The notes under the pieces: generated by a model | What the model saw: only the letters and a program-made list of their open reading frames with translations | Database searches by the model: none | What the model was told of the DNA's origin: nothing | Virus record (IMG/VR): IMGVR_UViG_3300048587_000964 | Location: 1 to 39,880 of that record | Origin: a virus | Reading direction: 5' to 3' (one strand) | DNA: 39,880 nt | Part shown: positions 37,959 through 39,733 of the stretch, piece by piece | How the letters are laid out: every line of letters begins with the position of its first letter | Numbering within the stretch: the first letter of the stretch is position 1 | Made by a program: the position numbers and the translations under genes

Positions 37959-38151
37959 GGTAGTAAGCAATTTTTGGACTGCAGTAATTGCATCCATTAT
38001 TTTAACAGCCACAGCGCTGTTATTGAACGGCCACGAACATTGTGGCCTGGTATTAACATTTGAAGGATTGTTATTTGGTATAAGAGTGGCTGATAAGGGC
38101 ATTCAGGCTTACCAAAAAGGCAAGAGCGCTCCCGAACAATTGCGGGTATAA
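37948..38151 (+). CDS. Small membrane protein (holin candidate)
   Basis: This 67-aa protein starts at ATG 37948, 11 nt inside the previous gene. One hydrophobic span near residues 8-27 ('FWTAVIASIILTATALLLNG') is followed by a second weak one ('HCGLVLTFEGLLFGI') and a basic tail. The size and span pattern fit a small holin, but there is no adjacent endolysin, so the role is uncertain. Confidence 0.5.
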   Translation: MVNKVVSNFWTAVIASIILTATALLLNGHEHCGLVLTFEGLLFGIRVADKGIQAYQKGKSAPEQLRV

Positions 38152-38154
38152 AAA

Positions 38155-38260
38155 CCCCCGGCATACTTAACGATCTCACTCAATTAAATATTAAAATCCA
38201 CTCAGGGAACCGGGGGCAAAGCCTTCAGTAAACTAAGTGGATTTTTTAATTGAGTGAGAT
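38155..38260 (+). promoter_or_regulatory. Structured leader burying the start codon of the next gene
   Basis: CCCCCGG (38155-38161) pairs with CCGGGGG (38210-38216). A 30-nt segment (38173-38202) pairs with 38236-38260 as a long AT-rich stem with a few unpaired bases. The two stems are interleaved in a pseudoknot order. The right arm of the long stem includes the AT of the ATG at 38259, and a TTG at 38250 lies inside it, so ribosomes cannot start without the stem opening. The fold is by eye; the translational role is inferred. Confidence 0.65.
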
Positions 38261-38918
38261 GACAAATATAACAAAAACGAGACAGAACAAGTATCATCGT
38301 ATGCTTGCAAAAATCCTTGAAAAAGGAAAAATTCAAAAGAATAAAAAAGGAGATATCCAATATCTTATAAATGAGCGATTGGTAATGAAACCAATTGATT
38401 TATTGGAAATCTTTGAGGGCCATGGAATGGCCAGGAAGAAATTGAAGGATGAGCTCAATCTATTTATGGCCGGAGAACGTTCCACCGAAGCCTATCGTGA
38501 AGCTGGAGTTACTTGGTGGGACTATTGTGGTCCAATATTGGTAAACAGTTACCCTACTTATTTTGAGCAACTGCCCAGACTAATCGAAAAGATAAACCGC
38601 GAGAAAAGGAATAGCAAAAATTACGTGCTGTTTCTAGGACAAACTAATGCAGAAAGCAATCAGCAACCGTGTCTGAGCTTGATACAGTTTCAGATTGAAA
38701 AAGGAAAATTAATTGTATCTGCTTATCAACGATCGAGCGATGCCAGTTTAGGATTGCCAGCAGACATTTACCACTTGTATCTGATCAGTAAGCAGATAGA
38801 CGTGCAGTTGAAATCGATTACATTATTCCTGGGCAATGTCCACATCTACCAAAATAATATTGAGGGCACAAAGGAACTGCTTGCCGGTGGCTCAACCAAA
38901 TTCACATTGAACGTATGA
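38259..38918 (+). CDS. Thymidylate-synthase superfamily protein, dCMP-type (candidate dCMP hydroxymethylase)
   Basis: This protein has 219 aa from ATG 38259; TTG 38250 would add three residues. Superfamily motifs are visible: catalytic Cys138 in PCLSLIQFQ, phosphate-binding Arg158 in YQRSSD (Asp161), then LGLPADI with Asp169, and His195/Tyr197 in NVHIYQN. In thymidylate synthase the residue matching Asp169 is Asn, which reads dUMP; an Asp there marks dCMP hydroxymethylases such as T4 gp42. The chain is shorter than classic enzymes (~265 aa), mostly at the N-terminus. It overlaps the methylase gene by ATGA. It could supply a modified cytosine for phage DNA. Family: firm; substrate: inferred. 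Confidence 0.75.
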   Translation: MTNITKTRQNKYHRMLAKILEKGKIQKNKKGDIQYLINERLVMKPIDLLEIFEGHGMARKKLKDELNLFMAGERSTEAYREAGVTWWDYCGPILVNSYPTYFEQLPRLIEKINREKRNSKNYVLFLGQTNAESNQQPCLSLIQFQIEKGKLIVSAYQRSSDASLGLPADIYHLYLISKQIDVQLKSITLFLGNVHIYQNNIEGTKELLAGGSTKFTLNV

Positions 38919-39733
38919 AGACACCAACGAGTTACTACGGAGGCAAACAGAACCTTGTGAGCACCATTTTGCCATTGATACCTGATCATTCAACATACGT
39001 GGAACCGTTTGTTGGTGGCGGTGCTATCTTCTGGGCAAAACCAAAAAGCGAGACCGAAATCATCAATGATTACAATCGAGAGCTGATAAACTTCTACGAG
39101 TGCGTACAGAATGAATTTGTAGAGCTGGAGAAATTGGTACGTATAAGCCTCCACAGTCGCTCCCTGCACAATGATGCAACCGTTATCTATAACAACCCCC
39201 ATATGTTCGATAGATTGAAGCGTGCGTGGGCTGTGTGGGTTCTGGCTGCCCAAAGCTTCAGTAGTATGCTCGATGGTTCCTTTGGGTATGACCGGATGAA
39301 AGGCACTACCAGTAAGAAGATAACGAATAAACGCGAGGATTTTACAATTGATTTGGCTATCAGGATGCAGAATGTTCAAGTAGAATGTACAGATGCGCTG
39401 CGGGTAATCAATAGCCGGGACCACAAAGATGCGTTCCATTATTGTGATCCACCATACTTCAATAGTGATTGTGGCCACTACGACGGATATAGCCAAGATG
39501 ACTTTGAGAATCTATTAAAAACCTTACAGGGCGTTCAAGGTAAGTTTATGATGAGTAGCTACCCCAGTGAGATATTGAAACGGTACAGCGATGCCAATGG
39601 TTGGCATACGATGCAGTTGGAGCAAAGCGTAAGTGTGGCGAATGGAACTGGCAGACCGGGAAAGAAGAAGATAGAAGTACTGACGGCCAACTATGACCTC
39701 AGCAACCCGCGAGATGATTTAAAGTTGTTTTAA
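38915..39733 (+). CDS. D12-class (Dam-type) N6-adenine DNA methyltransferase
   Basis: This 272-aa protein has SAM-binding motif region YYGGKQNL (7-14) with EPFVGGGAIF (30-39), then catalytic DPPYF (178-182). This is the order of the D12 Dam class. 'WAVWVLAAQSFSSMLDGSFGYDRM' (~105-130) is the usual insertion near the target-recognition region. It would methylate adenine, often in GATC. It is translationally coupled to the thymidylate-synthase-like gene by a 4-nt overlap. Together they form a DNA-modification module at the phage right end, the place of com-mom in Mu. Confidence 0.9.
   Translation: MKTPTSYYGGKQNLVSTILPLIPDHSTYVEPFVGGGAIFWAKPKSETEIINDYNRELINFYECVQNEFVELEKLVRISLHSRSLHNDATVIYNNPHMFDRLKRAWAVWVLAAQSFSSMLDGSFGYDRMKGTTSKKITNKREDFTIDLAIRMQNVQVECTDALRVINSRDHKDAFHYCDPPYFNSDCGHYDGYSQDDFENLLKTLQGVQGKFMMSSYPSEILKRYSDANGWHTMQLEQSVSVANGTGRPGKKKIEVLTANYDLSNPRDDLKLF

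Follow-up and report, generated by a model that had tools for sequence, protein, structure and literature searches.

How do phages restrain the enzymes that modify their DNA? In Mu, control acts on the mom mRNA, whose translation is activated by the protein Com (PMC6483171). We address this question in a 39,880-nucleotide stretch of viral DNA (IMG/VR record IMGVR_UViG_3300048587_000964), referred to here as the window. A preliminary description had noted two interleaved pairs of complementary segments before a DNA-modification gene, and had proposed an mRNA leader that buries the start codon, by the logic of mom. Judged from its sequence, the element is best read as an unlisted RNA family that lies beside almost every such DNA-modification cassette in transposable phages of Bacteroidota. 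That it is a small minus-strand RNA gene, with its own predicted promoter and terminator, is well supported. Antisense restraint of the cassette is the best explanation of its role, and we give it a probability of about one half.

The element and its surroundings in the window

The window is a Mu-like transposable phage, with a DDE transposase (phrog_310, E 1.8e-50) and a MuB-like ATPase (phrog_296, E 1.1e-53) at its left end. The features at issue are listed below; helix arms are given as read on the minus strand and follow the helix annotation of 110 copies.

38149..38259, minus strand: proposed small RNA of about 111 nt, with its start near 38259 and its end in the U-tract, as suggested by promoter, helices and U-tract
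38150..38154, minus strand: U-tract, TTTTT, directly 3' of the pseudoknot arm
38155..38161, minus strand: pseudoknot 3' arm, CCGGGGG, the putative terminator stem
38173..38187, minus strand: P1 3' arm, TTAATTGAGTGAGAT
38193..38205, minus strand: P2 3' arm, CTGAGTGGATTTT
38210..38216, minus strand: pseudoknot 5' arm, CCCCCGG, inside the P2 loop (G-U bias 70 vs 1)
38233..38245, minus strand: P2 5' arm, AAAATCCACTTAG
38246..38260, minus strand: P1 5' arm, ATCTCACTCAATTAA
38263..38270, minus strand: predicted -7 box of the RNA gene's promoter, TATATTTG, conserved as TAnnTTTG
38288..38291, minus strand: weak -33-like element, CTTG (matches TTTG at 3 of 4 letters), separated from the -7 box by 17 nt
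38259..38918, plus strand: thymidylate-synthase (TS)-family protein of 219 aa, first cassette gene (PF00303, E 7.7e-21)
38915..39733, plus strand: D12-class N6-adenine DNA methyltransferase (PF02086, E 1.8e-27)

The two interleaved pairings are present and lie far above chance. In plus-strand letters, CCCCCGG at 38155-38161 is complementary to CCGGGGG at 38210-38216, and this C/G pairing crosses the long stem to give a true pseudoknot. The stem itself is AT-rich, as described; the single helix of ~25 bp resolves into two stacked helices, P1 (ATCTCACTCAATTAA at 38173-38187 with TTAATTGAGTGAGAT at 38246-38260) and P2 (AAAATCCACTCAG at 38193-38205 with CTAAGTGGATTTT at 38233-38245; plus-strand letters for both). 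The plus-strand fold of the element has an energy of -48.7 kcal/mol, against -25.8 +/- 3.5 in shuffles (z -6.5), and the minus-strand fold has a z of -6.2. With the three-helix geometry held fixed, the window forms 34 Watson-Crick pairs; dinucleotide shuffles form a mean of 7 and a maximum of 23 (n=300). The start codon had been placed inside the long stem. In the window, the ATG at 38259-38261 shares two bases with the outermost P1 pairs, so that the stem touches the start codon and does not contain it.

The first cassette gene encodes a protein with features of two known enzymes. In ThyA, an Asn selects dUMP; in T4 dCMP hydroxymethylase, an Asn-to-Asp change selects dCMP. Aligned to solved thymidylate synthases, the window protein keeps the catalytic Cys, like both enzymes, and carries Asp at the substrate-selecting Asn of ThyA, like the T4 enzyme and unlike ThyA; it is shorter than either. 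A cytosine-modifying role is therefore plausible, and the protein is a possible dCMP- or cytosine-modifying enzyme. In the same protein (38259-38918), Leu replaces the His that follows the catalytic Cys.

Conservation of the fold and its strand

With the TS protein as query we collected 155 loci, some in Bacteroidota genomes and others in viral contigs. We scanned these with two covariance models, R1 built from 17 Flavobacterium-type copies and R2 from Bacteroidales copies, together with a helix search. The element is present in 143 of the 155 loci, always in one orientation, divergent from the modification cassette. Part of the 143 score weakly in one model (E up to 1) and were counted because position, orientation and anatomy agree. 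Among the 12 loci that lack the element, four (L023, L068, L069, L132) offer too little upstream sequence and a fifth (L075) is merely a distant TS relative. Pattern scans added little beyond the known copies; two candidates were discarded, L194 for lying inside a coding gene and L184 as weak.

Helices were annotated sequence by sequence in 110 distinct copies, because P2 misaligns through arms of varying length; a single MAFFT alignment of all copies was dropped for this fault. G-U and A-C were scored alike, which keeps the count strand-neutral. P1, P2 and the pseudoknot are common to the 110 copies, with a mean of 32.7 Watson-Crick pairs per copy versus 6.5 in shuffles. At each of the seven core positions of P1, more than 96% of copies have a Watson-Crick pair; most of these positions show all four pair types, and the pairs of P2 and of the pseudoknot vary in the same way. 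The pseudoknot strand usually abuts P2, with a gap of 0 or 1 nt in 84 of the 110. Compensatory changes thus occur in both stems, and their absence had been named as grounds for giving up the idea; the structure survives, and the start-codon mechanism does not.

The gene behind the element changes from phage to phage. It may encode a TS-family protein, a D12 methyltransferase (L010, L073, L165, L169), a C5 methyltransferase (L166), a Mom protein or hp44, and the position and orientation of the RNA are kept throughout. The Mom of L180 is genuine (PF25680, E 1.8e-60); the contig came from the Bacteroidales search, and its element is oriented divergently from the Mom gene. The element does, then, head a phage DNA-modification cassette, as the preliminary description held.

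On which strand does the structure act? Read as minus-strand RNA, the pseudoknot helices of the 110 copies contain 70 G-U pairs; read as plus-strand RNA, they contain 1. It is thus for an RNA of the minus strand that the pseudoknot is maintained. The cores of P1 and P2 contain hardly any G-U or A-C, on both strands about equally, and may therefore be kept on both strands. This avoidance would make sense if both strands or helix strength matter, and it is as expected if an antisense RNA and an mRNA leader both fold. An early count over 62 copies found P1 and P2 wobbles without strand bias; per-position counts assign part of them to sequence beyond the predicted transcript, or to a handful of P2 columns in a single subfamily.

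Signals at either end of the fold also lie on the minus strand. Directly before P1 stands TAnnTTTG, each letter of which is 97-99% conserved in the 110 copies; TAnnTTTG with TTTG is the consensus promoter form of the primary Bacteroidota sigma factor. Among 87 distinct upstream regions of relatives, TTTG peaks 19 nt upstream of the -7 box (11 against 1.8 expected). At the other end, the G-rich pseudoknot arm runs into a U-tract in all 110 annotated copies, a frequency that is selected, since the U-tract was a search criterion; two model hits, L044 and L169, fail it. A classical intrinsic terminator was looked for directly before the U-tract, and there is no such local hairpin: the 5' arm lies in the P2 loop, across P1 and P2, and the minimum-free-energy fold of the window has merely a 3-bp local hairpin at this point. 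Together, a -7 box before P1 and a U-tract after the pseudoknot arm give the anatomy of a free-standing RNA with a pseudoknotted terminator. Its predicted length in relatives is about 105-148 nt, with a median of about 121.

These data bear on the proposal of a plus-strand leader, in which a stem in the mRNA would keep the TS-family start codon hidden until a protein unfolds that stem. P1 and P2 can indeed form on either strand, with wobbles avoided on both, and the ATG overlaps the last P1 pairs in the window, L001 and L078, all within the window's small clade, and directly follows P1 in L002. In nearly all relatives, however, 13-71 nt separate P1 from the first start codon; most other negative distances are artefacts of choosing the longest reading frame over a conserved MNKYH start. 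Moreover, relatives have different first genes, the minus strand has a conserved promoter and U-tract together with the 70:1 excess of pseudoknot wobbles, and a Com-like gene was not noticed among the genes scanned. We reject a leader that hides the ATG, on the wobbles, the start-codon distance and the changing first gene, and regard it as very improbable: promoter, terminator and G-U pairs place the RNA on the minus strand, with the ATG mostly outside the stem.

Could the palindrome act as DNA, in the form of a cruciform, a protein-binding palindrome or a transposition site? It lies near the right end of a Mu-like phage, and the even avoidance of wobbles in the P1 and P2 cores would suit such a role. 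Yet the arm sequences vary freely, the pseudoknot wobbles favour one of the two RNA strands, and the fold is flanked by a conserved promoter and U-tract. A DNA-level element is the least credible of the readings considered, and we give it almost no weight.

A candidate antisense RNA and its alternatives

From structure, strand, promoter and U-tract signals, position and linkage to modification genes, all read from the sequence, we infer that an RNA is transcribed, acts in antisense and is timed as follows. Host RNA polymerase would start at the -7 box (38263-38270). The RNA of about 111 nt would fold into a rod of P1 and P2, its apical loop pairing with its 3' tail. Transcription would stop at the U-tract, with the pseudoknot helix taking the place of a terminator hairpin. 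The RNA would run antisense to the stretch that separates the last late gene from the modification cassette; in the relatives, a median of 22 nt lies between the end of the upstream gene and the A-tract that comes after it. The cassette seldom has a recognisable promoter of its own (plus-strand TAnnTTTG stands near it in just 6 of 110 copies), and its mRNA should therefore derive from upstream late transcription and include the sequence complementary to the RNA. This complement would sit in the mRNA leader, 15-70 nt before the first start codon. In the prophage, an RNA from a host-type promoter firing against late transcription might keep the cassette silent, through antisense pairing, transcription collision or both. 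During lytic growth, strong late transcription would override the restraint. Restraint at the RNA level is plausible because Mu also controls mom at the RNA level (PMC6483171).

Two features typical of cis-encoded antisense RNAs are found here at the level of sequence: a promoter of its own on the opposite strand, and a factor-independent end inside the leader of the target. Points against an antisense RNA gene are the weakness of the -33 element in the window and the arrangement of the copies found on chromosomes.

In five of five genomes of one bacterial family, identified with R2 and R3, the RNA is followed after about 20-36 nt by an ECF sigma factor gene in the same direction (L177, L179/L186, L181, L183, L189). 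Three of the encoded proteins were tested and have Pfam sigma-70 domains; the remaining two were assigned by sequence. At the three loci read fully (L177, L181, L183), rubrerythrin adjoins the ECF locus and a Fur/PerR-type regulator stands beside it. An R3 scan of 395 genomes spread over the phylum, with the stricter filters used in large scans, gave no further copies. The chromosomal copy looks like a leader with a terminator. A same-strand gene follows the terminator directly in 5 of 5 chromosomal copies versus 4 of 108 phage copies. This co-directional arrangement is not antisense, and it counts against the antisense explanation. Elsewhere in two of these genomes are further, weaker and diverged copies of the same architecture (L190, L191), and L191 has a different gene downstream on the same strand.

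A leader of this kind suggests a conditional terminator, similar to an attenuator or riboswitch, in which a signal-dependent pseudoknot decides between stop and run-on. On chromosomes the ECF sigma gene would be under its control; in phages, a long antisense RNA against the late genes would result from run-on. Alternative folds do exist: the P2 loop holds a small local hairpin that shares bases with the pseudoknot strand, and the terminator arm has a possible partner in the 3' flank (5.6 versus 4.2 in shuffles). The consistent position before the ECF gene adds to its appeal. Against it, the phage copies generally have no same-strand gene to gate (an open reading frame follows the U-tract in 4 of 108), and we consider it possible, though doubtful.

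Past the U-tract, in the window (38131-38161) and in the 3' flanks of most copies, there is another hairpin, above chance, whose loop could base-pair to the terminator arm. On the plus strand this would amount to a compact pseudoknot that has an A-rich loop; its wobbles show no strand bias.

Antisense pairing needs complementarity alone, and any overlapping transcript would have that; the deep conservation of the fold, which suggests that the RNA acts in its own right, is a further point against the antisense explanation. The phage RNA might be a structured, trans-acting prophage RNA of the right-end module, which binds a host or phage protein as a sponge, a superinfection RNA or a packaging RNA. 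The free sequence within a conserved fold, in which most positions of the P1 core show each of the four pair types, is consistent with such a role, as are the host-type promoter and the lack of a same-strand gene in phages. On the other hand, tight linkage to many kinds of modification gene, whatever the enzyme, argues for a role directed at the cassette, and the chromosomal leader copies speak against a virion role. We hold a trans-acting RNA to be unlikely.

A broader proposal joins the two settings. One pseudoknotted conditional-terminator fold would be common to the phages and to the bacterial lineage, gating DNA modification of any chemistry (methylation, Mom or a TS-family base change) in the former and captured as an ECF switch in the one family, with the same cellular signal or protein acting on both. 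This is speculative and rather improbable; if it holds, the phage RNA could sense a stress signal of the host or act as a sink for it.

Relation to known systems

The antisense reading, which we prefer, has well-known counterparts. Cis-encoded antisense RNAs of plasmids and phages include CopA/CopT, ColIb Inc RNA/repZ and lambda OOP. The RNA predicted here resembles them: it would be a short RNA with its own promoter, complementary to the leader of the controlled gene, with an intrinsic terminator and hairpins mirrored on both strands. It differs from them in that the terminator helix is a pseudoknot between apical loop and 3' tail, that the fold is conserved across Bacteroidota with an almost free sequence, and that a co-directional chromosomal version exists.

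The comparison with com-mom of Mu is partial. Both cases concern a DNA-modification gene at the right end of a transposable phage and proposed control at the RNA level, and the L180 cassette even holds a genuine Mom. Unlike in Mu, it is the opposite strand that bears the conserved structure, flanked by a promoter and U-tract of its own, and we noticed no Com-like protein among the genes scanned. The idea of RNA control over phage DNA modification carries over from the preliminary description; the anatomy and the strand do not.

The kind of arrangement is known: a small phage RNA opposite the operon that it controls. What appears to be undescribed in the literature that we searched is this RNA family, with its pseudoknotted terminator and its link to cassettes of differing modification chemistry. 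No Rfam 15 family reaches its gathering score at the element in the window or in 21 related loci, and permissive Rfam scans of two copies gave sub-threshold hits alone. Literature searches did not find the family described; the supplements of a microbiome RNA catalogue (PMC8040213) may hold it. The main text of that catalogue mentions a Bacteroidetes palindromic RNA near phage domains, which is not a clear fit because it is predicted without a terminator. Two traits are unusual in themselves: the use of a pseudoknot where a terminator hairpin would be expected, and the presence of a copy ahead of the gene for an ECF sigma factor.

The family, found in nearly all cassettes examined, includes the widespread gut hankyphage. 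Hankyphage is a transposable Bacteroides phage with a TS-family gene and an N6 methyltransferase at its right end (PMC6199706, PMC12135933). It shares this arrangement with the window, and hankyphage p00 carries the same RNA element at BK010646 40547-40693. That record leaves the RNA unannotated, and a search by term of the two hankyphage papers turned up nothing on a non-coding or antisense RNA at the site. How phages restrain DNA-modification enzymes could thereby move from a story specific to Mu to a testable RNA in cultivable Bacteroides.

Two observations concern hankyphage and its neighbourhood. Between the hankyphage RNA and the TS gene lies hp44, an 80-aa protein (L162 3210-3449) with weak similarity to Mor/HTH families, and hp44 is the first cassette gene in several Bacteroidales phages. 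In two relatives, an Rfam RT-3 RNA lies slightly upstream of the element (L140 3870-4014 and L049 3874-4018), possibly as part of a diversity-generating retroelement like that of hankyphage.
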